Shown: piece after piece, positions 14,155 to 46,066 of the stretch | Layout of the letters: every line of letters begins with the position of its first letter | Numbering within the stretch: position 1 is the stretch's first letter | Source: a virus | Virus record (IMG/VR): IMGVR_UViG_3300029258_001300 | Location: 1-46,066 of that record | DNA: 46,066 nt | Reading direction: 5' to 3' (one strand) | The notes under the pieces: generated by a model | What the model was told of the DNA's origin: nothing | Database searches by the model: none | What the model saw: the letters and a program-made list of their open reading frames with translations, nothing else | Translations under genes and position numbers: made by a program

Positions 14155-14368
14155 GGGGCCGACAAAGTACCGACTCACAGAGAAGGGCCAGAAATTTCTA
14201 ATCGGCGTTCACGACTTTTGGTTTGAAGAAGCGAAATTGGAATACGACATAAAAGACAAGGAAGAATATTCGCGGCGTTTCATGAGCCAATTTAACAACC
14301 CTATAACGGCTTGCGCGTTGCTTTACGATACACAACGAATCGAATCAGAACAGGAAAAGAAACATTGA
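14069..14368 (+). CDS. Hypothetical protein, winged-helix-like segment, 99 aa
   Basis: The start at ATG 14069 behind GGAAAGGGGCGAAG lies inside the terminase-like gene, with an 86-base overlap in another frame. Residues 22-45 (KAGLIKVEGPTKYRLTEKGQ) resemble the wing of a winged helix. The rest is acidic and helical. No family is assigned. It overlaps the next gene's TTG start by 4 bases (TTGA). Confidence 0.65.
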   Translation: MQQMASDPQVIWAMKKMGKAIKAGLIKVEGPTKYRLTEKGQKFLIGVHDFWFEEAKLEYDIKDKEEYSRRFMSQFNNPITACALLYDTQRIESEQEKKH

Positions 14369-14757
14369 TAATTGCAAAATGTAAATATCGCCATTGGTTG
14401 CCAAGGCTAATTGGATACGCGGGAATAACGCTAGGGCGCACAATCTATTTCGCGGGCGAAGAAGGAACGATAAGCAGCAAACTATACAAACACGAATTGC
14501 AACACGTTCGAGATATAAGGGCCGATGGATTGATAAAATTCTATTGGCTTTATTTATTTTGGTTCGCGAGATTGCTTTGTAAGCTACGCAATTGGGGTAA
14601 GGCATACCGAGCTATACCCTACGAAAAGAGGGCGCAGAAGGCAGAACAGCGCACCATGCAACCGGAAGACTTAGAAGCCTTGGGCCTGTATGGTTACAGA
14701 CACGGGCTTAAATTAGTTTTAAGACATACACCAAAAAAGAAAGGAAAAAAGAAATGA
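14365..14757 (+). CDS. Small HExxH metallopeptidase-like protein, 130 aa
   Basis: The motif HELQHVRDIRADG starting at about residue 37 is a clear HExxH zinc site. It is followed by an aromatic, possibly membrane-embedded stretch (FYWLYLFWFARLLCKL), then AIPYEKRAQKAEQ, whose Glu could be the third metal ligand, as in small minigluzincin-like proteins. The start is taken as TTG 14365, overlapping the preceding stop and preceded by AGGAAAAGAAACA. A proteolytic role is inferred from the motif; substrate unknown. The C-terminus is Lys-rich. Confidence 0.72.
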   Translation: MIIAKCKYRHWLPRLIGYAGITLGRTIYFAGEEGTISSKLYKHELQHVRDIRADGLIKFYWLYLFWFARLLCKLRNWGKAYRAIPYEKRAQKAEQRTMQPEDLEALGLYGYRHGLKLVLRHTPKKKGKKK

Positions 14758-17115: not shown

Positions 17116-17411
17116 TGCAAATAGTATCAATGAACAATCGAATATCCTTTTCCATTCCCGCCAAGTTGTTTTGGCTTGGTGTTTGTTTCTTTTCTTTGGG
17201 GGCGGGCGTCTTGTCGGGGCTTGTCTTTATTGTCTGTTTTGAAGTTGGTTTGGTTTTATCGGCCAATGAACAGAACAAGGCAAGACTTGACGAATTAAAT
17301 AAATTACAATTAAAGTCAGAGCAACAATTGACCGAATTACTTTCATATTACGGATTCAATAAATTGGCCAAAACTGGAAAGGCAAACAACCATGTTAGAG
17401 ACAATAATTAG
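17115..17411 (+). CDS. Membrane protein with one or two transmembrane segments, 98 aa
   Basis: Residues 17-48 form a long hydrophobic stretch (LFWLGVCFFSLGAGVLSGLV onward), likely a membrane hairpin. The rest is a charged coiled coil (KARLDELNKLQLKSEQQLTE). ATG 17115 overlaps the preceding stop as TAATG, with no clear ribosome binding site; ATG 17130 is an alternative. It is a further holin or signal-anchor candidate. It overlaps the following structural gene by 20 bases. Confidence 0.65.
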   Translation: MQIVSMNNRISFSIPAKLFWLGVCFFSLGAGVLSGLVFIVCFEVGLVLSANEQNKARLDELNKLQLKSEQQLTELLSYYGFNKLAKTGKANNHVRDNN

Positions 17412-19209
17412 TTATGATAACGCATCAAATTTTGTTTTCGATTCAAACCTAATCGAAATCGACACCGATCACGCGCAATTGCTTTTGGTTGGCAATGCGG
17501 GCAATACGTTCGACGAAGATTTCGCCGACGATACCGACTTTGTATATGACAACGCGAAAGCCGAATTTGTTGGGGGCGTTGCGCGTTCAAAAATGTTGAC
17601 AATGGCGAACGAACAATTATTAGTTTCGCCAGTAACGACGGCGGACGCAAGCCGATCAATCGCAGACGGAACCGCAACGGCGCAAAACGGCGCAACGATT
17701 ACAGAATACAACAGCAAAAATTATCTTGATATTTCGGGCGGCGTTGTTGGGCGTTGCTTTCAATACAATCCATCAAATTGTGATTTCGGAAGCGTTGGAA
17801 CGATTTCGTTTAAAGTAGTACCACAATACACAGGCGCACCCGCTAGTAATCAATATTTCTTTACCGTTTCGGGCGACGCAAACGCGCATAGGCTTTCATT
17901 GTGGCACCAATCAGACGGGAATATATGGCTAGTAATAAAAAGGGGCGACGGCGGAACAAGATCACAACCAAACATGGGGGCGTTTAGTCCGGTAGCAGGA
18001 ACGGAATACGATATAGAAATTGTTTTTGGTTTAGATGGAACCGGAACGAAACTTTATGTTGACGGGATAGAAATAGGAACGTCAGCATCGGCGGAAAATA
18101 GGGTTTCGCCAATGACAGAGTTTTCTATAGGTAATATTGTCGGACAAGCAGATTTTCTAATAAGAGACTTCCAAGTTTTTACAGACAAACAACACACGGC
18201 AAATTTTGACGGCGATTTACCGCGAACAATTAACCTTTATGAAGAATCAATGATGCAATTACCCGCTATGAATTATAGCGGAATCGGCGAAATTCTTAGC
18301 TATGAATCTTTAACTTGTACCGAAGTAGGAACCCCGCGTTATATTTTTAACGGCGAATATTGGAACGGCGCAGCATGGGCAGCAAGCGACGACAGTTACG
18401 CACAAGCCAACACATTAGTCGATATTAACGCGCATCTTGGAAGCAAGACGCCAAGCGACAACAACACAATTAAAGTTGTTTTTCCAAGCGGCTTAATTCT
18501 TTCTAGCGTTGACGATTTGAGTTTGGAATATACCGACGAAGGATACAGCAAAGCCAATCCAACAATCGAAACGGGTTCAACGGTTGACGCCGACGAATTG
18601 CAAAACTTTCTCGCAACAACCGTTGTTGTTGGAAGCGATAGCGTTACATTTTATTTAGTCGTTAATGGCGTTGCGACTTGGTTTAATGGCGCGGCGTGGG
18701 TTGCTTCTGACAAGTCGTTAGCACAATCAAACACGGCGGCGGATATTTTGGCGAACATGGCAAGCCTTGACATTACGGCGGGCGCGACGTTGACAGTGGG
18801 CGCAATACTTCACAGCGACGACGGTTCAACAACGCCGGAATTGTATTCGCACACATTGGGCTATAGCTATTGGTTGCAAGACCCGACCGAACCAAACGAA
18901 GCCTATTTACATGGGCATTTCAAAGACATTTTAGGCGACAACGAAGACAACCCCGTAACACTGATAATTGAAAACAAGGAACCGATTCAACACGGCGGTT
19001 ATATTATTAGACCGACAAAAGTTGAAATCGAAAGCGATAGCGAGGGGCGTTTTGAATTTCCATTAGTCGAAACCGAAACAATAAGTAAAAAATATTTGTT
19101 CAAATTCAAATATACAAACATCGACGGCGTGGAAAAAACCGCAACGTTAGGAGAAGCGACAATACCAAATCAACCCATTGTGAATTTATCCGACTTGACT
19201 TTTAGTTAG
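17392..19209 (+). CDS. LamG-like structural protein with internal repeat, 605 aa
   Basis: The middle part (about residues 100-260) has the beta-sandwich signature of LamG/concanavalin-like domains: FSPVAGTEYDIEIVFGLDGT, TKLYVDGIEIG, and a following F-S-I-G-N strand. Such domains sit in phage virion decorations and tail fibres and bind glycans. A repeat follows: NGAAWAASDDSYAQANT at about 325-341 and NGAAWVASDKSLAQSNT at about 432-448. The position just before terminase and away from the other tail genes is odd. A host-binding virion protein is the best guess. Confidence 0.65.
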   Translation: MLETIISYDNASNFVFDSNLIEIDTDHAQLLLVGNAGNTFDEDFADDTDFVYDNAKAEFVGGVARSKMLTMANEQLLVSPVTTADASRSIADGTATAQNGATITEYNSKNYLDISGGVVGRCFQYNPSNCDFGSVGTISFKVVPQYTGAPASNQYFFTVSGDANAHRLSLWHQSDGNIWLVIKRGDGGTRSQPNMGAFSPVAGTEYDIEIVFGLDGTGTKLYVDGIEIGTSASAENRVSPMTEFSIGNIVGQADFLIRDFQVFTDKQHTANFDGDLPRTINLYEESMMQLPAMNYSGIGEILSYESLTCTEVGTPRYIFNGEYWNGAAWAASDDSYAQANTLVDINAHLGSKTPSDNNTIKVVFPSGLILSSVDDLSLEYTDEGYSKANPTIETGSTVDADELQNFLATTVVVGSDSVTFYLVVNGVATWFNGAAWVASDKSLAQSNTAADILANMASLDITAGATLTVGAILHSDDGSTTPELYSHTLGYSYWLQDPTEPNEAYLHGHFKDILGDNEDNPVTLIIENKEPIQHGGYIIRPTKVEIESDSEGRFEFPLVETETISKKYLFKFKYTNIDGVEKTATLGEATIPNQPIVNLSDLTFS

Positions 19210-20745: not shown

Positions 20746-20979
20746 ATGCTTTACGACGTAAGGAACCAACGCGGAATTAAGCTAGGCAAATTTGATTTAC
20801 CGGACGCAACCAAAGAGGGTTCGGTTATCATGATTGCAGGGGAAAGATTTAAAGTTGTTGCGTTTGTTAAAGAAGACAAGCGTTTGTATATCAAACCGTT
20901 TACTAAAGAACGTCAACCCGTGAGGGGTTGGCATCAAACGGAAATCGTAAAAAAAGGAGATCGGACACATGGCTATTAA
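20746..20979 (+). CDS. Hypothetical protein between terL and the tail chaperones, 77 aa
   Basis: A small basic beta-rich protein (MLYDVRNQRGIKLGKFDLPD, VIMIAGERFKVVAFVKEDKR). No family is recognised. ATG 20746 follows AAAGGGGAAAA. It overlaps the next gene by 11 bases. Confidence 0.7.
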   Translation: MLYDVRNQRGIKLGKFDLPDATKEGSVIMIAGERFKVVAFVKEDKRLYIKPFTKERQPVRGWHQTEIVKKGDRTHGY

Positions 20980-21535
20980 ACTAGCAGCAAAAACGGAAGC
21001 GGGCCAATTGCTTAAATTGGTAATGTCAACAGACAGCGCGATAGATTGGGAAAAGACTTACCCAAACTTCGAAGAAGAATTGGCGGAAGAAGCCCCCGAC
21101 GAATACGACGACGAAGAAGCGGAAACGTTGACGTTGACCGAGCGCAAAATTGAACACTACAAGAAAAGCCACGACGCAACAAAATTGGTTTTCAAAGAAG
21201 CGGGCGAAGGCGAAGAAATCGACGAACCAACGTTTTTCGTTTTCAAACACCCAAGCAGGGCGGAAGTCGCAAGAACACTCAGGGCCATGTATTCGAAAAT
21301 GTTCGGCGGAAAGAAGGGCGGCGGCGATATGTACACCGAAACTTTCCACCTAACATATTTGGGAACGCAAGAGGGAATACACGGGGCCATTGAAGACGCG
21401 CCGCGAGTAGGGGGCAAGATCACAAACAAATACTTTCAAATGCTTGAAGACGCCAATGTAATTGAAGAAATTGGAACGGCATACATGAAAGTATTAAACA
21501 AAAAGACCGAAGACGCCGACAAGCGAAAAAAGTAA
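20969..21535 (+). CDS. Tail assembly chaperone, short form (gpG-like), 188 aa
   Basis: Position and organisation identify it: it lies two frames upstream of the tape measure gene and ends with an A AAA AAG slip site directly before TAA, as in the lambda G/GT system. The protein is very acidic in the first third (EEELAEEAPDEYDDEEAE), as in many tail chaperones. Chaperones of this type coat the tape measure protein while the tube is built. ATG 20969 follows AAAAAGGAGATCGGACAC, a variant of the standard site. Sequence homology itself is not obvious. Confidence 0.78.
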   Translation: MAIKLAAKTEAGQLLKLVMSTDSAIDWEKTYPNFEEELAEEAPDEYDDEEAETLTLTERKIEHYKKSHDATKLVFKEAGEGEEIDEPTFFVFKHPSRAEVARTLRAMYSKMFGGKKGGGDMYTETFHLTYLGTQEGIHGAIEDAPRVGGKITNKYFQMLEDANVIEEIGTAYMKVLNKKTEDADKRKK

Positions 21536-22002
21536 AGGCTTTTGTCGAATGGAATTTTTGCGACTTTGGCGCATTGAAGAAGAAGGGGCGGCGTTTTGAA
21601 TGTACGACGATTGACAAAGACACGGGAAAAGAAATCGAGCTTTGCAAGCCAGAAGTACAGAAACGCCGACGTTGCCACGAAGACCGTTGGAATTTTGGGC
21701 CAGAAGACGGGGCCACGTTCCCGATTTACTTGGGCCAAGGTTCCAGTGGTTTTGGTTTTTGTCCTGCAAAGTTATTCCGCGACGACGTTCCGTTTGTTAT
21801 GCTATTAAAAGATTTAATAGTTAAATGGAAATGCGGCGGGTTGAATGTTGACGACATGCAATTAGAGGAATACGAAATTTTGTACGATTTAATTATCATG
21901 TGGGAACAAGAACAACGGGCGCAAGACTTTAAAGTATTAGGTTCAATGTTGGGCGGCAAAAGCGAAGGTAAAGGCCAAAACAATTCAAGAGTACAAAGGT
22001 AA
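20969..22002 (+). CDS. Tail assembly chaperone, -1 frameshift form (gpGT-like), 344 aa
   Basis: Ribosomes slipping back one base at 21526-21532 would join 20969-21532 to 21532-22002. The downstream frame is open without a stop from the slip site to 22002, has no ATG or ribosome binding site of its own near its start, and is followed 3 bases later by the tape measure gene. The extension (156 residues) holds several Cys and Trp and a charged C-terminus. In known systems the fusion is made at a few percent and links tape measure protein to tube subunits. Confidence 0.82.
21526..21532 (+). promoter_or_regulatory. Programmed -1 frameshift slippery heptamer A AAA AAG
   Basis: In the zero frame the codons are CGA-AAA-AAG-TAA, so the heptamer is in the exact X-XXY-YYZ phase and the stop codon follows it directly. 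Slipping leads into the open T frame. No downstream pseudoknot was obvious by eye. Confidence 0.88.
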
Positions 22003-22005
22003 ATC

Positions 22006-25000
22006 ATGGCTACAAAATTAACCGCTAGAATTTCAGTGGACGGCAAAGACAAAGCAAGCAAGGGTTTCGATAGCGCAACCAAAGCGGCGAAGCGTTTCGA
22101 CAAACAAGCGAGCGTTACAAAAGCAAGTTGGGCGCAAACGTTTACCGCGTTATCTACTGGCTATCTTGCAATGAAAGCGGCGTTCGGTGATTTGACGCGG
22201 GCGTTAATGGCACCTTTGAAACTTGCAGCCATGAATGAAACAAGTAGCTTTCGATTAAAAGCGGCGTTGGAAGGTTTGGGCGAAACAACGAAAGGCGTTT
22301 TCGAAGACTTGACAAATTACGCGGGCCAATTAGAAATCGCAAGCGGATTCGCGGGCGAAGCGGTTGAACAAACTATAGTGTTGGGCAAAGCCTATGGAAT
22401 GACAGGCGACCAAGTTAAAAGTTTTACAAGAGCGAGCGCGGCGTTGGCAAACTTGACGGGTAAAGACTTGGCGACCACAACGGAGATGTTGAAAATGTCA
22501 TTAATGGGCCAAGCCCGAACACTAAAGACAATCATTCCCGCAGTTGGAAACTTGACGGCGGAAGAATTGCGACAAGGCAAAGCCATTGCAGCCGTCAATA
22601 AACATTTAGATCATTTTGTTACGGCGACCGCATACACAATGCAGGGCGCATTAACTCGCATGACAACGCTATGGGAAAACTACCAGAAAGCGGCGGGGCG
22701 GGCTTTCTTCCAAGGAATGAAACTAGAAAAATCTTTACCGCGACTTTTAAACGCGTTCCAACGTTTCCTTGATGTTTTGATGGACGGTAACGGGGGCTTG
22801 GAAGAATTTGGCGAAACGGTTGCAAACAAAATTGTTGGGGGTATGGAAGCATTAGCCGACGCGGCGGAAAAGACGGCGCGTTATTGGGCGGCTTGGTCTA
22901 GCGCAGCAACGGCAGTTGATTGGCAAGCGTGGGGCGTTATTGTTTCGACCGCGATTATTTCAGTTTACACCGCGTTAAATTCGGGCGCGTTGGTTACGGG
23001 CGCGACTCAGTTTATTGGGTTCCTTACAAACTTTTCAATGATCGTTCCGAAAATTGTCGTTGGCGTTAAGGCAATGGGCGCAGCATTAGCGGCGGCGGCA
23101 ATTCCGGCGGCATTGATAGCGGCCAAGATTGCGTTGATTGTGGGCGCAGTTGCGGCGGCGTATCTAGCTTTTCAGAATTGGGAAAAGATAGTTAAAGTTA
23201 TGCGGGGCGGTTTAATTAAATTTGGCGCGTGGACAATGAAAGCTATGGTTGCAATGCAAGAATTTGCGGCCAAAGGTTTCGACCTAATCGGTATGCAAGA
23301 ACAAGCCGACAAAATGGCAGAAAAAGCGGCGAAGACTCAAGAGAATGTTGTTAAGTGGACGAAAGAAGGAAACGACCTTTTAAAAGAAGGTAAACAAATG
23401 GCGTTCGATTGGGGCTTGATTGGCGACGCGTTCAACAGTGTTGGAAATGCGGTTGATAGATTCAATAGCAAATTGAGAGACACGGGAACCGCAGCAAGGA
23501 ACGCGAAGGGCGACGTTTTAGGAATGGCAAACGCGCAAACAAAAGCGGGCGAATTTAGCGGGCCAATTAAGGGCGTGCAAACGGGGGGCGAAGACGGCGC
23601 AGCAAAAAAGAAATTCGGAGTTAAAGAATGGGAAGACATGCAAAACGAAGTAAACAAATCGTTGGAAGGTGTCGCGCCACAACCAAAAGTTGACGCACCC
23701 GAAATCGCAAAATACATGACCGACCTTAAAAAAATTCAAGAAATGCGAAAAGGCTTTGATGAAAAGGTAAAGGAATTTGACACAAACGAAATTGAAAGCG
23801 CAAGGCGCGTTTCGGATGCAAAGAAATTTATTAACAAGCGTTTCGGTTATGCGGTTGGCGAAGCTAGAAAACAAATTACAAAAGACTTAATCGCAAACAT
23901 GGAAAAAGAAGCGACCGCGAACGCAATGGTTGAACAAGGGAAAGTTGATAAAGCAAAAGCGGCGGCGGCGTTAGTAGTTGGTTGGTGGAAGTGGGCTTTT
24001 CAAAACGGCTTAGTAAGTCAGCAAGAATATGAAATCGCAAAGAACAAAACAGAAGCCGACTTTTTAGAGAAGGGAACGCGGGCATTAGGCGAAGTTATTA
24101 AGCAACGTAATGATATGTACACGGCGGACGTTGAAGACATAATCAAAACGGCGGAAGACGCAAGCCAAGAAATAAACGAAATTTATGCGAGAGACTTGGA
24201 AGCGTTGAAGAAAAGAACGAAGGAAGAAAATTTAACATACCAAGCGCAAATGGCGGCGCGGGTTGAATTGGCGGAAGTTGCAGCAAAGCAGGAGCAAAAC
24301 GCATGGCAAGCGGCGGCGAATGAAATGCAAAACTTTTCGCCGACAGCAAAGACCGACAAAATTTTAAGAACAACGCGAACCGCATTTGACGCAATGGAAA
24401 ACGGCGTTAATAGTTTGCTTAAATCAATTGGCAGCATGGGCGACGTTTACATGAGAGCCATAATGGATATTATGGTTTTTTTGAACCGTTCACCGGAAGA
24501 AATGCGGGCCATGATTTTAGGATTGATTGAAGGCGTGGCGGATTTATTTAACAACATTGCCGACAATATCCCGTTAATTTTTAGAACAATTATTGATAAC
24601 ATTCCGCGTTTTATTGACATAATTTTAACCGACCTTATTGCAAACGTACCAATCTTGATTATGAATTTTTTTAGTGAAGTAATCATGGGAATTGCGGGCT
24701 TGGTTGATACGCTTTTTAGCCTAGACTTTTGGCGAAAGATATTTACGCGATTCATTAACGCGTTGGTTGAAGCGGGCGCAAACCTTTGGAATATCCTGTT
24801 ACACGGCAAGCCATTAACGCCATTGGTTTCGGACGAATTGGCGCAAGCCGAAACCGCAGCAAGAAAAGCGGCGGACTTTGGCGACGCGGAGGGCGGCGAC
24901 CAAGAATTTAAAATCAAGGAAATGGAAATCAAAGGCGTTCGTAAAGCGCAAGATACAGTTTTGGAGCAAGGCAAGAAAGCAACCGAAGAAGGAATGACCG

Positions 25001-26613
25001 ACGCAATACGAATGTTGTCGGAATGGTGGAGCCACGTTGCGACGCAGTTAAACAAATTTTGGGAACCGTTCGAACGCTTTGCGGCGTGGGTTGAAGGCGT
25101 TTGGAAAAATCTTTGGAATAACATTAAGAACATTGTAAAGGTTCCATCGGTTGAAACGTTCGGCAAGCTATTCGAGGATTTATGGAAAGATATTATTTGG
25201 AATCCAATAATGAATCTTTGGAACGACAGAGGAAATATTGGCGACGTTTTAAATGAATTTTTTGAAAGCGTTTTCGGTATTGGTTTAACTGGCTGGTACG
25301 AAAAGATACAAGCGGGCGGCGACAAAATGAAAGAAGGGTTTAGAAAAATGGGAACCCTAATTTCGAATTGGTGGAAACGTTTTACAAAGATCGACATAAA
25401 CGCGGGCAAAGCAGCAATGAACCCCGACACAATTAAAAACGCATTGAACCAAGGCAGCGCAAACCTTGACAACGTATTTAGTGACCAAGGCAATTTCAAT
25501 GCAAGGCTTGGCGACTTTGACGACCTTTCAAGCGACGTTTTCGACGACGGCGGAAAGGTAACGGAAGCGTTCGACAAAGTGGGCGAAATGTTTTCATTAT
25601 CAACCGACAACATGACAATGGGCCTTGATAATTCTTTCTTGCTTGGCGGCGAAAAACTTTCAATGGCTTCATTCGATTTACAAAATGTTTTTACAAACGC
25701 ATGGACAAGTTTTACAGGCGCAATAACAAAACTTGGCGAAGTCTTTGGCGGATTCGATAAAATGCAAGCGGCGTTTGACGGCTTTCTATCAATGTTCGCT
25801 TTGATTGATTGGGGCGGACTTGGAAAACAAATTGTTGATGGAATAAAAAGAAGTTTGGTTGATTTGTACGAAACGCTAAAAAGTTTGGGCGGGAAAATCT
25901 TTACAGGCTTGTGGGAATCACTAAGCAAGAATTGGGAAAAATTTACAAAAAACTTTTCGACAATGGGCCGTAAAATATTCTTTGGACTATGGAACGCATT
26001 AAGCGGAAGTTGGGCGAAGTTTACAAAGAATTTTACAACAATGGGTAAAAAAATAATGTATGGGTTTTGGAACGGCATTGTTTCCTTTTGGGATAAATTG
26101 AAAGACATTTTCACAACATTAGGCGAAAAAGTTTTGGACGGTTTGGGAGTATCGACAGGCGGCGACGGTGGAACGACGGGGCAAATTGCGAGCGCGTTGG
26201 GAATGAGCGAGGGGGGTTGGGTTGGAAATTCAGCAAAGAACAAAGCAAACGGCGACACCGAATTACGTTGGCTAAATCCAAACGAGTATGTTTTACCTGT
26301 CAGCATGACAAGCAACGGCGATTTAATGGCAATCGTCGAAGCGTTCGCCAAGGGCGGAATGGTTGGCGTTGCAAGTTTAGCCAGTGGAACGGGCGGCGCA
26401 TCGGGCGCAATTCCATCGGCAACCAACACAACCAACACAACCAACAACACGACAACGGGCGGAACGAATACCGTAAACCTAAACTTCAATGTTGCGGCGG
26501 GCGCAGTATTTGACAAAGCGGCGGTTAGGAAAGCAATGCCCGCGATTATCGAGCAATTAAAAGGGCGTTCACGAAACGGCGAACGAATTATTTTTTCAAG
26601 CGGGGTTTATTAA
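22006..26613 (+). CDS. Tape measure protein, 1535 aa
   Basis: The gene is the longest in the genome. N-terminus (LTARISVDGKDKASKGFDSA) and Ala/Lys-rich helices match tape measure proteins. Hydrophobic segments lie at about residues 345-390 and 825-915. Three 25-26-residue repeats with Trp (GLWESLSKNWEKFTKNF, GLWNALSGSWAKFTKNF, GFWNGIVSFWDKLKDIF) lie at about 1301-1379. The length predicts a tail of roughly 230 nm at 0.15 nm per residue. It starts 3 bases after the chaperone frame. Confidence 0.95.
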   Translation: MATKLTARISVDGKDKASKGFDSATKAAKRFDKQASVTKASWAQTFTALSTGYLAMKAAFGDLTRALMAPLKLAAMNETSSFRLKAALEGLGETTKGVFEDLTNYAGQLEIASGFAGEAVEQTIVLGKAYGMTGDQVKSFTRASAALANLTGKDLATTTEMLKMSLMGQARTLKTIIPAVGNLTAEELRQGKAIAAVNKHLDHFVTATAYTMQGALTRMTTLWENYQKAAGRAFFQGMKLEKSLPRLLNAFQRFLDVLMDGNGGLEEFGETVANKIVGGMEALADAAEKTARYWAAWSSAATAVDWQAWGVIVSTAIISVYTALNSGALVTGATQFIGFLTNFSMIVPKIVVGVKAMGAALAAAAIPAALIAAKIALIVGAVAAAYLAFQNWEKIVKVMRGGLIKFGAWTMKAMVAMQEFAAKGFDLIGMQEQADKMAEKAAKTQENVVKWTKEGNDLLKEGKQMAFDWGLIGDAFNSVGNAVDRFNSKLRDTGTAARNAKGDVLGMANAQTKAGEFSGPIKGVQTGGEDGAAKKKFGVKEWEDMQNEVNKSLEGVAPQPKVDAPEIAKYMTDLKKIQEMRKGFDEKVKEFDTNEIESARRVSDAKKFINKRFGYAVGEARKQITKDLIANMEKEATANAMVEQGKVDKAKAAAALVVGWWKWAFQNGLVSQQEYEIAKNKTEADFLEKGTRALGEVIKQRNDMYTADVEDIIKTAEDASQEINEIYARDLEALKKRTKEENLTYQAQMAARVELAEVAAKQEQNAWQAAANEMQNFSPTAKTDKILRTTRTAFDAMENGVNSLLKSIGSMGDVYMRAIMDIMVFLNRSPEEMRAMILGLIEGVADLFNNIADNIPLIFRTIIDNIPRFIDIILTDLIANVPILIMNFFSEVIMGIAGLVDTLFSLDFWRKIFTRFINALVEAGANLWNILLHGKPLTPLVSDELAQAETAARKAADFGDAEGGDQEFKIKEMEIKGVRKAQDTVLEQGKKATEEGMTDAIRMLSEWWSHVATQLNKFWEPFERFAAWVEGVWKNLWNNIKNIVKVPSVETFGKLFEDLWKDIIWNPIMNLWNDRGNIGDVLNEFFESVFGIGLTGWYEKIQAGGDKMKEGFRKMGTLISNWWKRFTKIDINAGKAAMNPDTIKNALNQGSANLDNVFSDQGNFNARLGDFDDLSSDVFDDGGKVTEAFDKVGEMFSLSTDNMTMGLDNSFLLGGEKLSMASFDLQNVFTNAWTSFTGAITKLGEVFGGFDKMQAAFDGFLSMFALIDWGGLGKQIVDGIKRSLVDLYETLKSLGGKIFTGLWESLSKNWEKFTKNFSTMGRKIFFGLWNALSGSWAKFTKNFTTMGKKIMYGFWNGIVSFWDKLKDIFTTLGEKVLDGLGVSTGGDGGTTGQIASALGMSEGGWVGNSAKNKANGDTELRWLNPNEYVLPVSMTSNGDLMAIVEAFAKGGMVGVASLASGTGGASGAIPSATNTTNTTNNTTTGGTNTVNLNFNVAAGAVFDKAAVRKAMPAIIEQLKGRSRNGERIIFSSGVY

Positions 26614-26616
26614 AAA

Positions 26617-28362
26617 ATGGCAGTTAATAACTATGTAATTTTTGACGGCGTAAACGAATACGCGAAAAATCCAAATGAAGTTTTTGATTTTAAAAATGAT
26701 AATTCGTTTTCCATTTCGTTGTGGGCTAAAACTTCGATTGCATCGTTTCAAGGTGTTGTTGATTTTCGTCAATACGATAGCGGTTCCAGTTACGGGCGCG
26801 GAGTTAAAATTGACTTGAGCGCAAACGGCGGCGGAAATTATTTGTGTCGTGCCTACGTTCAATCCCTGCAATACGAAGGCAACGGACAAGAACGAATCCA
26901 ATGCGACACGGGAGTTAATGACGCGGGTTGGATTCACATAGCTTTAGTTGTAAACGCGGGCTTGATTTCGGCAATGTATTTTAATGGCGTGAACGTTGGC
27001 GGCGGCGTTCCATCGGAAGCATTAACACCGAACATTGAAGAAACTTTATTAGGTCAATCGGCTTGGGTTCCCGCAAGCTATTTCAATGGCAACGTTTCTG
27101 AAGTCGCGGTTTGGGATAGGGTTTTAAGCGGCGCGGAAGTTACAGAAATTTACAACGCAGGAACCCCGCTAGACTTGGGCGGCGTTACCTATTACGACGA
27201 CCTACAACATTGGTGGCGTTGCGGAATACTTGACGCGCACCCATATTTGAGCGACTACAAAGGCAACCGATCACTACAAATGTATAACATGGAAGCGGGC
27301 GACATTATCGGCGGCGTTGGCGACCAATCGAATTTCGTTGCGGGCGCATGGGCCGAATCGGCTTGGACAATTTACGCATACACGGCCAGAACAATAGGGG
27401 CCGGAATCCATGTAATGAATTACCACAAACTTTTATCAACGCTTCGGTTGCCATACATGCAAACCAATCAAGCGTTGGGCCGTTTGTTTCTTCCCTTTGG
27501 TATGCGGTTCCCAATTTACAACACAACACAAGCGCGGTTTTTGTGGCAGATAGCAAGCGACGGGCAAGCCTTAAATAACTTCACAGCGGAAAGCGAAAAG
27601 AGTACAGACAAAGGCGTTTTAAATTTAAAGTCGGACATTATCGAAAAGTATTGGCAAAGCGACGACACGGTTGAAACTTGGTTTCAATTTGACGCGGGCG
27701 AAAACAATACAATTTCAATCGACACGGCGGCGTTGCTAGATCACAATTTATCATCAAGCGCGTATGTTACAATTCAAGCCTATGGGGGCGGAAGTGACAG
27801 CGCACCCGCAGACGACGAAGAATGGTCAATCGTTCCAATTTACGGCACTATGGAAATGCCCAACGACCCGTTAGAAACAAACTTGATTTGGGTTGCACCC
27901 GAATTGCCGTTGGTTTCATATCGACATTGGCGCGTTACAATTAGCGACCCCGTAAACGTTGACGGCTTTATAAAAATTGGGCGGTTCCTTGGCGGCGCGG
28001 CTTTAATCTTTGACCAAAAAGAAAACTTGATTGCTGATTTTAATTTGGATTGGGAAAACTACAAAGACGAAATCGAATTGGCGGGCTTCTACAACATAGC
28101 AAACAATAGGGCGTTGCGTAAAACGTTGACCGTAAACTTTAACAAACTTGACACAAAGGGAAATGAAAACTTTGCGCGTATGCGGCGCATGTTGAAATAT
28201 GTTCGCGACACGTTAAAAGTTTTGGTAATACCCGACCCCGTGGAACCCTACAATTTCGCGGTATATGGAAAACTTGAAGACATGCCAAGCGAAAGTCATA
28301 GCTATGTTGACGAAGACGCGCAATACGCAAGCCTATCATTGAAGTTTAACGAAGGGCGTTAA
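26617..28362 (+). CDS. Distal tail protein with N-terminal LamG domain, 581 aa
   Basis: Residues about 1-190 are a LamG/Laminin-G3-like domain: FSISLWAKTS, AGWIHIALVVN and the C-terminal hallmark VSEVAVWDRVLSGAEV. This would bind sugars on the host surface or within the tail tip. The C-terminal part (from about 215) resembles distal-tail/baseplate hub proteins by position between tape measure and the hub gene. It starts 3 bases after the tape measure stop, without a clear ribosome binding site, so translation is probably coupled. Confidence 0.7.
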   Translation: MAVNNYVIFDGVNEYAKNPNEVFDFKNDNSFSISLWAKTSIASFQGVVDFRQYDSGSSYGRGVKIDLSANGGGNYLCRAYVQSLQYEGNGQERIQCDTGVNDAGWIHIALVVNAGLISAMYFNGVNVGGGVPSEALTPNIEETLLGQSAWVPASYFNGNVSEVAVWDRVLSGAEVTEIYNAGTPLDLGGVTYYDDLQHWWRCGILDAHPYLSDYKGNRSLQMYNMEAGDIIGGVGDQSNFVAGAWAESAWTIYAYTARTIGAGIHVMNYHKLLSTLRLPYMQTNQALGRLFLPFGMRFPIYNTTQARFLWQIASDGQALNNFTAESEKSTDKGVLNLKSDIIEKYWQSDDTVETWFQFDAGENNTISIDTAALLDHNLSSSAYVTIQAYGGGSDSAPADDEEWSIVPIYGTMEMPNDPLETNLIWVAPELPLVSYRHWRVTISDPVNVDGFIKIGRFLGGAALIFDQKENLIADFNLDWENYKDEIELAGFYNIANNRALRKTLTVNFNKLDTKGNENFARMRRMLKYVRDTLKVLVIPDPVEPYNFAVYGKLEDMPSESHSYVDEDAQYASLSLKFNEGR

Positions 28363-35784: not shown

Positions 35785-35842
35785 GCAGTTGAACATAAAA
35801 CCGCACCTAACGACTTATCACCAACGAAAATTCGGGGTTGAA

Positions 35843-38002
35843 ATGCGACTTTTTTCTAAAAAGAACGATAAAAATATTGCGCCAATTATTGAAACCAAAG
35901 ACGAGGAAGACGACGGCGGTTTTATAATGAACGTTGGCGACAATTTTGTGGAAACAATCAAGGGTTTTGATTGGCAGCATTTCAGCGCATTGGGCGGGGG
36001 CGACGCGTACCAAGGCGAATATGATTTTCATTTAACATCGGCAATCATAAAAAAACTTTATCGTTCCGAACCGTGGCTAGGCTTGGCGGTTAATGCGATT
36101 GCTCGACAATTTTTTAAATCAAAGTTTGAATTGGTTCGGGCCGTGGACGACGAAGGCAACGCGGACGTTGTAAAAAACCACGGGATTTTAACTTTTCTTC
36201 ACAACGCAGGGAAAGAAAATCGCGGCTTCTTTTATTCCAATTTGATTTTGGATTTATTTTTAACTGGCAACGCATACTTTCATATTGACATGAAAGAAAA
36301 CGATAAAAAGAGACTTCCAAGCGAGGGCGTAAAGCCGAACGTTAGCAAAAACGAAATCGTTGGATACAAACTTGGAACGGGAAACAAAGAAGTTACTTTG
36401 GCACCCGAAGAAGTTGTACAGATTGCAATGCCGAACCCGTTTTCTCAACACGTTGGATTAAGCCCCCTAGTTGCTTTGAATTTGCCCGTATTGATCGACA
36501 AGTATGGGCGCGAGTACATTGTCGGGTTTTTCCTCAGGGGCGGAAACACAAGCGGGATTATGGAAACCGACGCAAAGAACGCCGATCAATTAATGAGATT
36601 CGCACGTTCAATCATGCAAGCCTTTGGAAGTCGGCGCAATATGCATAGCGACAAGATTTTACCGAAGGGCGCAAAGTTTGTCGGCAACGCTTCGAAGTTT
36701 AGCGAAATCCAATTGGTTGAATTGCTCAAGTCGAATCAAACATTATTTAGGGCGGCGACGGGCGCAACCAATACCGTTTTGGGAATCGCGGAAAATGTAA
36801 ACAGGGCGACCGCGTTCGCCGAGCTAGAACATTTTTGGCGAATGACAATTGAACCCCTGCAATTCATTGTGTCGGCTTGTATAAAGCAATCTGATTTGTG
36901 GCGTTACTATGGATTGACCGAGCGCGACGAAATTCGTTTCGACAATTCCGACGTTGAATTTTTGGACAATTTCGACAGATTGTTAGACCAAGACACAAAG
37001 TTAAAAGAAACTTGGACGGTAAACGAACGACGGGAACGACTCGGAAAAGACCCGATGGAAGGTTACGACAAACTATCAAGCGAGATCGGAACGCCACAAT
37101 CTAGCCCGTTGTTTTTCTCAATGGACGAAACGAAAAGCATAGCGGGGCAAACCGAAGAAGACGACGGCAAAAGCGACCGACAAAAATTTTTTGAATGTTG
37201 CCAAAAAGAACACGCGCAAATGCTAAAGCCAACGGACAAAACAACCGAAGCGTTTCAAAGAGAATTTAAACGTTGGGAAATGATTGTTCGGGATAATCCA
37301 AAAGACCGACAAAAAGCCGAAAAGAAAATCAAAAAAGAAGCGAAAGAATTTATCGAGGAAATCACAAAAAGCTATATGCCAACGCTAATGAAAAATTACG
37401 AAAGAAAAATCAATCAAGTTTTAAATTCCAAATCCGTTCGAGGGAAAGTCAAAGCTGAGGAATTAGAACAAGACCGCAGGGCGCGACTTGAACAATTGAA
37501 GGAACGGGCGCAACGCGTAATTTACGACGGCGTTTTTGATAACGGCGAAAAATCTTTTCTCGGTTATTTAGAAAGCGAAATGACACGCGCATATAAAACA
37601 ATCGACGAAGGATTCAAAGAGGGCGAAAACTTGGACGATATAGCCAAGCGGATTCGTGATAAATTCGGAGACTTCTACAACGGCCAAGCTAAAACAATTG
37701 TACGCACAGAATTTGCCAACGCGGTTTCTACAGGGAACCAACAATTTTCAAAAGACTTGGCAACCGTTACAACCAAAATGCGAAAAACTTGGATTGCAGC
37801 AAACGACGGCGACACACGGCCAGAACATGCAGCGTTGCATCTTGTTAGTGTTGAAGGGCCAGCCGACGAAGTGCCAAACAAATATTTTCAAATCGGCGGC
37901 GAAGATTATTTACGTTATCCATTGGACGAAAGCGGCGCGGCGGGCGACGTTATAAACTGCCGTTGCGAATTAATACACGAAGTAATTGAATGGAAGGAAT
38001 GA
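35843..38002 (+). CDS. Portal protein fused to MuF head-morphogenesis domain, 719 aa
   Basis: Residues about 30-440 form a portal protein with typical features: R-S-E-P-W-L-G-L-A-V-N-A-I-A-R after 70, LILDLFLTGNAYFHI, and PFSQHVGLSPLVALNLPVLI. Residues about 480-560 are a charged coiled coil. The C-terminal part from about 610 has the MuF signature: VRTEFANAVSTGN, W-I-A-A-N-D-G-D-T-R-P-E-H, and C-R-C near the end. MuF proteins are usually separate genes after the portal. Start chosen at ATG 35843 behind CGGGGTTGAA; a TTG at 35789 would lie in the leader. Confidence 0.9.
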   Translation: MRLFSKKNDKNIAPIIETKDEEDDGGFIMNVGDNFVETIKGFDWQHFSALGGGDAYQGEYDFHLTSAIIKKLYRSEPWLGLAVNAIARQFFKSKFELVRAVDDEGNADVVKNHGILTFLHNAGKENRGFFYSNLILDLFLTGNAYFHIDMKENDKKRLPSEGVKPNVSKNEIVGYKLGTGNKEVTLAPEEVVQIAMPNPFSQHVGLSPLVALNLPVLIDKYGREYIVGFFLRGGNTSGIMETDAKNADQLMRFARSIMQAFGSRRNMHSDKILPKGAKFVGNASKFSEIQLVELLKSNQTLFRAATGATNTVLGIAENVNRATAFAELEHFWRMTIEPLQFIVSACIKQSDLWRYYGLTERDEIRFDNSDVEFLDNFDRLLDQDTKLKETWTVNERRERLGKDPMEGYDKLSSEIGTPQSSPLFFSMDETKSIAGQTEEDDGKSDRQKFFECCQKEHAQMLKPTDKTTEAFQREFKRWEMIVRDNPKDRQKAEKKIKKEAKEFIEEITKSYMPTLMKNYERKINQVLNSKSVRGKVKAEELEQDRRARLEQLKERAQRVIYDGVFDNGEKSFLGYLESEMTRAYKTIDEGFKEGENLDDIAKRIRDKFGDFYNGQAKTIVRTEFANAVSTGNQQFSKDLATVTTKMRKTWIAANDGDTRPEHAALHLVSVEGPADEVPNKYFQIGGEDYLRYPLDESGAAGDVINCRCELIHEVIEWKE

Positions 38003-42567: not shown

Positions 42568-44181
42568 ATGAAACTTAGAAGTAGTCAAGATTTTGCCGCT
42601 ACCTACAACGGAAACAAAAAAGGTATTGGTATCGGAATTGAAAACTATGTTCACGTTCGCGAAGAAGCCACGGCGGGAACGTTTCTACCCCCGCGAGTAG
42701 GAACGGCGGGTTATTCCGAATCAGACGACACGCCAAGCGAAGACATTAGCGCAGGGCCAGCCGATACGCTAGGAATCACAGTTGACGGCGGTTCGTTGCT
42801 TGACGTTACATTGTCATTAGTCGGAACGAACACGGGCGATTTAATCGCGGCGGAAATTGTGGACAAAGTAAACGCGGCGTTGGCATTGGCAGGAAGTGAT
42901 TCGAGAATTGACGCCGATTGGGATACAACAGTTGCGGGCCATTACTATATCGCAAGCCAAAAGACAGGGCCAAATTCAAGCGTTGTTATCACGGCGGGCG
43001 TTGGCGGCGGCGGCGACGTTACCCCCGCGTTGAAAATTGGCGTTGCAAATACAGGAACCGAAGACGTTGGAACCAAGGGCGGCGATTTTCTTTATATGAC
43101 AAAAGCAAGTCTAAAAGTCGATCAGCCTTTTGAACCAAGCGAACACAGAACGGGCCGACAGGCGTCAAGTATTATCAAGAAAAAAATCATGTCTGAAGGC
43201 GATTTGGAAATGTATTTTAACTTGAACACTGACACGGGCGACGCAATCGACCCCGCAGTTGATTTGCTTTTACAATCTGTTTTCGGCAACAAAGAAGAAA
43301 CCGCAAGCTATATCCGTTACAATTCGAAGCAAGCCCAAAACAAATTTATGTCATTTACCCAAGCGAACAACGCTTTCGTTCGCGCAATGAATGGCGTTTA
43401 CACCAAATCACTTTCAATAAGTCTTGTCGGCGACGGCGAAGCTAAGTTGACAATGCCATTAAAAGCGCGTGACGGGCTTTACGCTTCGATTGCAAAACTA
43501 TCGGCGGGCGCAACGGCGGAAGCGGAATTAAGCCTTGAAGCGGGCGAAGAATGGAATTTCGACATTGGCGCGTATGTAATGGTAGTTGATACCGACGGAC
43601 GAACGGTTTTGGCGGGGGCCGATGGAACGCTTCGCGTATTGTCTCGAAACACAACAACCAACACCGCAACGCTTTCAAGCCCCGTAACGGCTTCGCTTGG
43701 CGCGTTTATCGTTCCCTATGCCCCGCATGTATTCGACCAAGCTGGAATCGACAACCCAATTACGGGCTTGCAAGGTTACGTTTCGTTTGACAATGGAGCG
43801 ACACAAGTCGAAGAAATTCGAAGTTGCGAAATTACATTCGACCCCGTTCTTGAAGACCAAGACAACTATTACGGGGCCGATGGAAACCGTGGCTTTGTTG
43901 TCGGCGGACGAAGCGACATTAAAATTTCTCTTGACGTTATGCTTTCCGTTTCTCAACTTTCAACGGTAATGAAGACACGCGGCGACGCGACTTTTGCAAT
44001 GAAAATTGTACTAGGCGACGACACGGGCCGACATTTCATTTTTAAAGCCCCCAAAGTTAAATATGCGGTTCCACCTATCGAAATGCCCGACAGTGGTTCA
44101 ATCGCAATCCAACTAGAGGGAACGTGCTTACAATCCGAAACCGGAGCATTGGACGCGTTCGAAATGGAAATCGTAAAATAA
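42568..44181 (+). CDS. Major tail tube protein with inserted domain, 537 aa
   Basis: The gene has the tail-tube position and a conserved end (VPPIEMPDSGSIAIQLEGTC). At 537 residues it is longer than most tube proteins. Residues about 55-165 (SEDISAGPADTLGITVDGGS, AEIVDKVNAALALAGSDS, YYIASQKTGPNSS) look like an inserted beta domain like those on virion surfaces. It should form the tube lumen around the tape measure. TTAGGAGTTTGAAAA drives it, the same strong site as the capsid. Confidence 0.83.
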   Translation: MKLRSSQDFAATYNGNKKGIGIGIENYVHVREEATAGTFLPPRVGTAGYSESDDTPSEDISAGPADTLGITVDGGSLLDVTLSLVGTNTGDLIAAEIVDKVNAALALAGSDSRIDADWDTTVAGHYYIASQKTGPNSSVVITAGVGGGGDVTPALKIGVANTGTEDVGTKGGDFLYMTKASLKVDQPFEPSEHRTGRQASSIIKKKIMSEGDLEMYFNLNTDTGDAIDPAVDLLLQSVFGNKEETASYIRYNSKQAQNKFMSFTQANNAFVRAMNGVYTKSLSISLVGDGEAKLTMPLKARDGLYASIAKLSAGATAEAELSLEAGEEWNFDIGAYVMVVDTDGRTVLAGADGTLRVLSRNTTTNTATLSSPVTASLGAFIVPYAPHVFDQAGIDNPITGLQGYVSFDNGATQVEEIRSCEITFDPVLEDQDNYYGADGNRGFVVGGRSDIKISLDVMLSVSQLSTVMKTRGDATFAMKIVLGDDTGRHFIFKAPKVKYAVPPIEMPDSGSIAIQLEGTCLQSETGALDAFEMEIVK

Positions 44182-45788: not shown

Positions 45789-46040
45789 ATGACACAATTT
45801 TACCACAAGTTTTTAGTCGTTGGGGGCTATTGTTGGGGCGCGGCCAAGACTTTAAAAGAAGCTAAGGCCAATTATCGAAATGAGGGCGGGAAAATGAAGG
45901 GCGTTCGAACGTTCATTGGCGTATCTGAAAAGCCTTTCAAAACTGGAAACGAGGAACCAAAGGAAAACGAAGCGCATTTTTACATTAACGAAATGGGCGG
46001 CGTAATGGTGAAAGATTGCGATTTGATTGAGATAAAATAA
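45789..46040 (+). CDS. Early hypothetical protein, 83 aa (crosses the contig junction)
   Basis: The protein begins MTQFYHKFLVVGGYCWGAAK and continues with a WGAAKTLKEAKANYR-type helix; the C-terminal half is acidic (EEPKENEAHFYINEMGGVMV). No family is recognised. Translation starts behind AGGAGATCACA. The last 38 residues are repeated at the start of the window, which shows where the genome circle was opened. Confidence 0.8.
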   Translation: MTQFYHKFLVVGGYCWGAAKTLKEAKANYRNEGGKMKGVRTFIGVSEKPFKTGNEEPKENEAHFYINEMGGVMVKDCDLIEIK

Positions 46041-46066
46041 ATAGCATTTTTTGCTTGACAAATTTG
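45923..46066. repeat. Terminal direct repeat, right copy
   Basis: Identical to bases 1-144. See the left copy. Confidence 0.97.

Follow-up and report, generated by a model that had tools for sequence, protein, structure and literature searches.

A very probable lambda-type G/GT tail assembly chaperone cassette with -1 ribosomal frameshifting in the genome of an unclassified phage

The DNA analysed here (referred to as the window) comprises the 46,066 bases of the IMG/VR virus record IMGVR_UViG_3300029258_001300, a metagenomic contig. An exact direct terminal repeat of 144 bases (1-144 and 45923-46066) makes it most likely that the contig is the closed and complete genome of a phage. The nearest annotated phages are distant (about 30% terminase identity with Tunturiibacter phage Tunturi_4); judged by its sequence, the phage appears unlike any in the annotated phage collection. 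The features considered below are the following:

20969..21535, plus strand: G, predicted tail assembly chaperone, short zero-frame product of 188 aa (21.3 kDa); ORF with a strong Shine-Dalgarno sequence, AAGGAG.
21526..21532, plus strand: A_AAA_AAG, predicted -1 slip heptamer, directly followed by the stop codon TAA (21533-21535); read from the sequence and supported by relatives.
21532..22002, plus strand: T, predicted -1 frame extension of 156 aa; open frame, matched by the profile of the relatives' T proteins (1.9e-23).
22006..26613, plus strand: tail tape measure protein, 1535 aa; profile from the downstream proteins of 11 relatives (5.6e-43), position and size.
42568..44181, plus strand: major tail protein, the expected partner of T; profile from the relatives' genes directly upstream of G (2.4e-55).

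The profiles made from the relatives confirm the tape measure protein, the major tail protein and G of the window. The product of 42568-44181 also matches a PHROG minor tail protein (1.3e-15). Genes in the window are ordered terminase, an 85-aa ORF, G, T, tape measure, tail genes, portal and head genes, and major tail protein. This order is rearranged across 19323-44181, the terminase adjoining G, T and the tape measure gene and the portal, head and major tail genes lying some 15-24 kb downstream. In the relatives described below, a large ORF occupies the portal position after the terminase, and the major tail protein gene, which in the window lies away from the G/T cassette, is directly upstream of G. 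Lambda-type cassettes usually have the major tail protein gene directly before G, but this position does not define them. Other large ORFs were noted in passing: 35789-38002 encodes a single protein of 737 aa that matches PHROG families for the portal as well as for head morphogenesis (minor head protein), an apparent fusion, and matches to Concanavalin A-like (Laminin_G_3) domains occur in two large proteins (17392-19209 and 26617-28362) whose genes neighbour those of the terminase and the tape measure protein.

The 3' end of G reads GAC AAG CGA AAA AAG TAA, with the heptamer in X_XXY_YYZ phase. Behind TGA 21463 the -1 frame has no stop until TAA 22000-22002 (156 codons past the slip site), the tape measure ATG follows at 22006, and the predicted GT fusion has 344 aa (39.3 kDa). 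These readings bear out the initial annotation, made from the letters and open reading frames, which had placed A AAA AAG in exact slip phase before TAA, described the -1 frame as open through to the tape measure gene and given the fusion 344 residues. It had also stated that the second frame lacks an ATG or a ribosome binding site near its start, which is right (GTG is likewise missing there) but needs one precision: a TTG at 21574, 42 nt into T and inside the domain, is the earliest possible start and the sole start codon ahead of the conserved core. No Shine-Dalgarno-like element precedes this TTG, in contrast to the clear AAGGAG of G. T is apparently reached only by frameshifting.

In an approximate gene set of the window, in-phase A_AAA_AA[AG] occurs 18 times in 12,677 codons, which corresponds to an expectation of about 0.4% for the final three codons of any one gene. 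The heptamer at 21526-21532 lies right at the 3' end of its gene and opens into a longer -1 frame than any other in-phase slip-type heptamer counted in this set; under a dinucleotide Markov model, 156 codons without a stop have a probability of about 0.001. A second frameshift candidate at 14733/14745, where the ORF 14311-14757 contains two in-phase A_AAA_AAG, was rejected: the ORF that follows overlaps it and possesses an ATG of its own at 14754, and ordinary translational coupling is therefore likely at this place.

Comparisons with annotated sequences yielded no homologues of the cassette. G, T and the tape measure protein found no match among annotated phages by tblastn, nor did the T proteins of two relatives, and neither G nor T matched a Pfam, PHROG or PDB family, which fits the earlier view that these chaperones look unrelated in sequence to those of lambda. 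Pattern searches of IMG/VR with the single G, T and TerL proteins found nothing, and a scan of the GTDB genome collection with the T alignment found no homologue. An alignment of terminases was needed to retrieve relatives from IMG/VR (about 40% terminase identity); two of the records so obtained encode T homologues, and the T alignment then gave 15 loci, which together with the earlier two represent 11 distinct relatives after removal of identical copies (L090=L100=L101, L091=L103, L092=L093=L094 and L105=L106). Their T proteins are 26-35% identical to that of the window, and the profile of their G proteins matches window G at 2.6e-9 (the next best ORF of the window scores 0.42).

In all 11 distinct relatives, T lies in the -1 frame of the upstream G ORF and an in-phase A_AAA_AAA is present at the G terminus; a stop at most about 65 nt before the slip site closes the T frame on its upstream side. 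Depending on start choice, their G ORFs have 145-197 aa, and they end in xxA AAA AAA AGY STOP, GCA AAA AAA AAT CCA STOP or AAA AAA AAA STOP, the A runs being 8 or 9 A's long compared to 6 A's followed by G in the window. In close pairs the codons just 5' of the run vary while the run itself is constant, and the tape measure gene follows T in every relative whose contig reaches far enough. Because the loci (L090-L106) were picked by similarity of the T protein and not by the heptamer, finding the slip run conserved in them is independent of how they were selected, and its retention in 11 distant relatives makes the frameshift call solid. An alignment of homologues had been proposed at the outset, with related phages lacking the heptamer or carrying stops in the -1 frame as evidence against a shift; no such phage occurs among the 11. 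The reading of the locus in terms of the G/GT logic of lambda is strongly supported by the relatives, the synteny and the profile matches, from which we infer the shift itself.

Three other explanations of the frame break were weighed against ribosomal slippage. T might be a gene in its own right, with translation initiated at TTG 21574 and coupled to the termination of G, and an early TTG is indeed found not only in the window but also in 3 of the 11 relatives (L102, L104 and L105). In the remaining eight, no start codon occurs before a point 123-246 nt into T, well within the conserved domain, and the TTG of the window has no ribosome binding site. Furthermore, the part of T that precedes TTG 21574 behaves as protein: it contains the invariant residues A3 and E6 of the alignment, and including it raises the profile match by about 12 bits (from 1.3e-19 to 1.9e-23). 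In the T frame, differences between close pairs fall mostly at third codon positions (3, 1 and 11 at positions 1, 2 and 3 in L093/L095, and 10, 3 and 34 in L090/L099, i.e., third-position shares of 11/15 and 34/47). The loss of about 12 bits and the third-position pattern together indicate protein-level constraint on T upstream of any possible start. Translation from an own start would also leave the invariant in-phase A run unexplained, and we regard it as very unlikely. Two predicted peptides fall in the region in question: AFVEWNFCDFGALK, a tryptic peptide of T that starts 5' of TTG 21574 and covers residues before L15, and DADKRKKVKAFVE, a Glu-C peptide across the G-T junction of the GT fusion.

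Transcriptional slippage, by which an extra A in the mRNA rather than a shift of the ribosome would produce the fusion, gains some plausibility from the runs of 8 or 9 A's in the relatives, since bacterial transcription slippage occurs on 9 A's (PMC5009743). The run of the window, however, has only 6 A's before the G and yet forms an exact A_AAA_AAG ribosomal heptamer, and what all members have in common is the in-phase heptamer, not the length of the run. As the general explanation it seems to us very unlikely, although it may make some contribution in the relatives with 8-9 A's. For a homopolymer run in a metagenomic contig it would be natural to suspect that one intact fusion gene was split by an error of sequencing or assembly, but all 11 distinct relatives, which come from several separate samples, show this break at the corresponding position, each time with a stop just after the run; since it recurs in independent contigs, error is practically excluded. 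Ribosomal slippage at the heptamer is retained as the explanation.

No Shine-Dalgarno-like stimulator was found upstream of the slip site in the window, or at a consistent position in the relatives, and no significant hairpin was found just after the slip site in the window. A downstream hairpin was rejected as a stimulator: significant hairpins exist in some relatives, mostly far from the slip site, and are absent from the window. Stable hairpins within the T coding sequence were observed at L091:1207-1243 and, about 30-35 nt past the G stop, in L093, L095 and L104; some of them are terminator-like, being followed by runs of thymines. None of these hairpins is present in the window. The AlphaFold models of G and T are of low confidence (pLDDT 52 and 60). 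Among viral structure predictions, several proteins named as chaperones of tail assembly or of the tape measure are weak neighbours of the G model, with no neighbour at E<=0.001, which is weakly consistent with a chaperone role without being proof of it; the T model was uninformative in this respect.

The T protein has a conserved pattern of cysteines. Cys24, Cys38, Cys48 and Cys77 of window T are invariant in all 12 distinct members (the window and 11 relatives), and the relatives' T proteins contain hardly any cysteines besides these four, which are arranged there as C-x2-C-x(7-9)-C-x(26-29)-C; the window has an insertion of 11 residues between the first two. Going by this pattern, the fold of the T domain is probably organised around a Cys4 metal site, likely for zinc. 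The chances seem to us evenly balanced that the T part represents a new zinc-binding chaperone domain, the frameshift adding a metal-stabilised module that would recruit the tail tube protein. No zinc-type tail chaperone like T turned up among the families and papers searched.

Taken together, 20969-22002 is very probably a lambda-type G/GT tail assembly chaperone cassette with a -1 ribosomal frameshift. The assignment of G and GT to the tail chaperones is supported by the synteny (G, T, tape measure) and the profile matches. Most ribosomes would translate G and terminate at TAA 21533, and a small fraction would slip back by one base with tRNA-Lys on AAA AAG at 21526-21532 and read on in the -1 frame, yielding the 344-aa GT as a minor product. 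In the lambda model, many gpG and few gpGT bind along the tape measure protein and T recruits the tail tube protein (PMC5009743). By analogy, G and the G part of GT may coat the tape measure protein, and the T part may recruit the major tail protein (42568-44181), upon which the tail tube would polymerise round the tape measure.

The frameshift of E. coli dnaX involves a Shine-Dalgarno-like element before the slip site and a hairpin after it, neither of which is evident in the window, and its function is unrelated. The heptamer of dnaX, A_AAA_AAG, is identical to that of the window, and in E. coli it is reported to be much more shift-prone than A_AAA_AAA (PMC5009743). The IMG/VR relatives (L090-L106) share homologous G, T and tape measure proteins and a slip run at the same place, and they differ from the window in having A_AAA_AAA as the run, the major tail protein gene directly 5' of G, and a CxxC in T. 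Among known systems, gpG and gpGT of lambda likewise have overlapping frames just before the tape measure gene, a -1 heptamer ending the first frame, and a long form made only by shifting. The lambda heptamer is G_GGA_AAG, whereas that of the window is A_AAA_AAG, and the proteins show no detectable common sequence family; in addition, window T has the Cys4 motif, and the major tail protein gene of the window lies elsewhere in the genome. Proteins of this class (the G/T chaperones) diverge widely, and homology of sequence or fold is not required of its members. The -1 programmed frameshift of lambda gpG/gpGT is conserved in long-tailed phages. The PRFect study (PMC10885494) gives a count of 2397 joined genes for tail assembly chaperones in a single phage database. 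The present locus adds to the keepers of the G/GT frameshift a group of unclassified phages with chaperones outside the curated families, which lends further weight to the idea of a conserved mechanism whose chaperone proteins diverge past recognition, and it gives an annotation to an otherwise unnamed protein pair, together with a Cys4 T domain open to testing. The mechanism is already known, lambda-type frameshifting being widespread; what is new are the G and T protein families and the cysteines of T.
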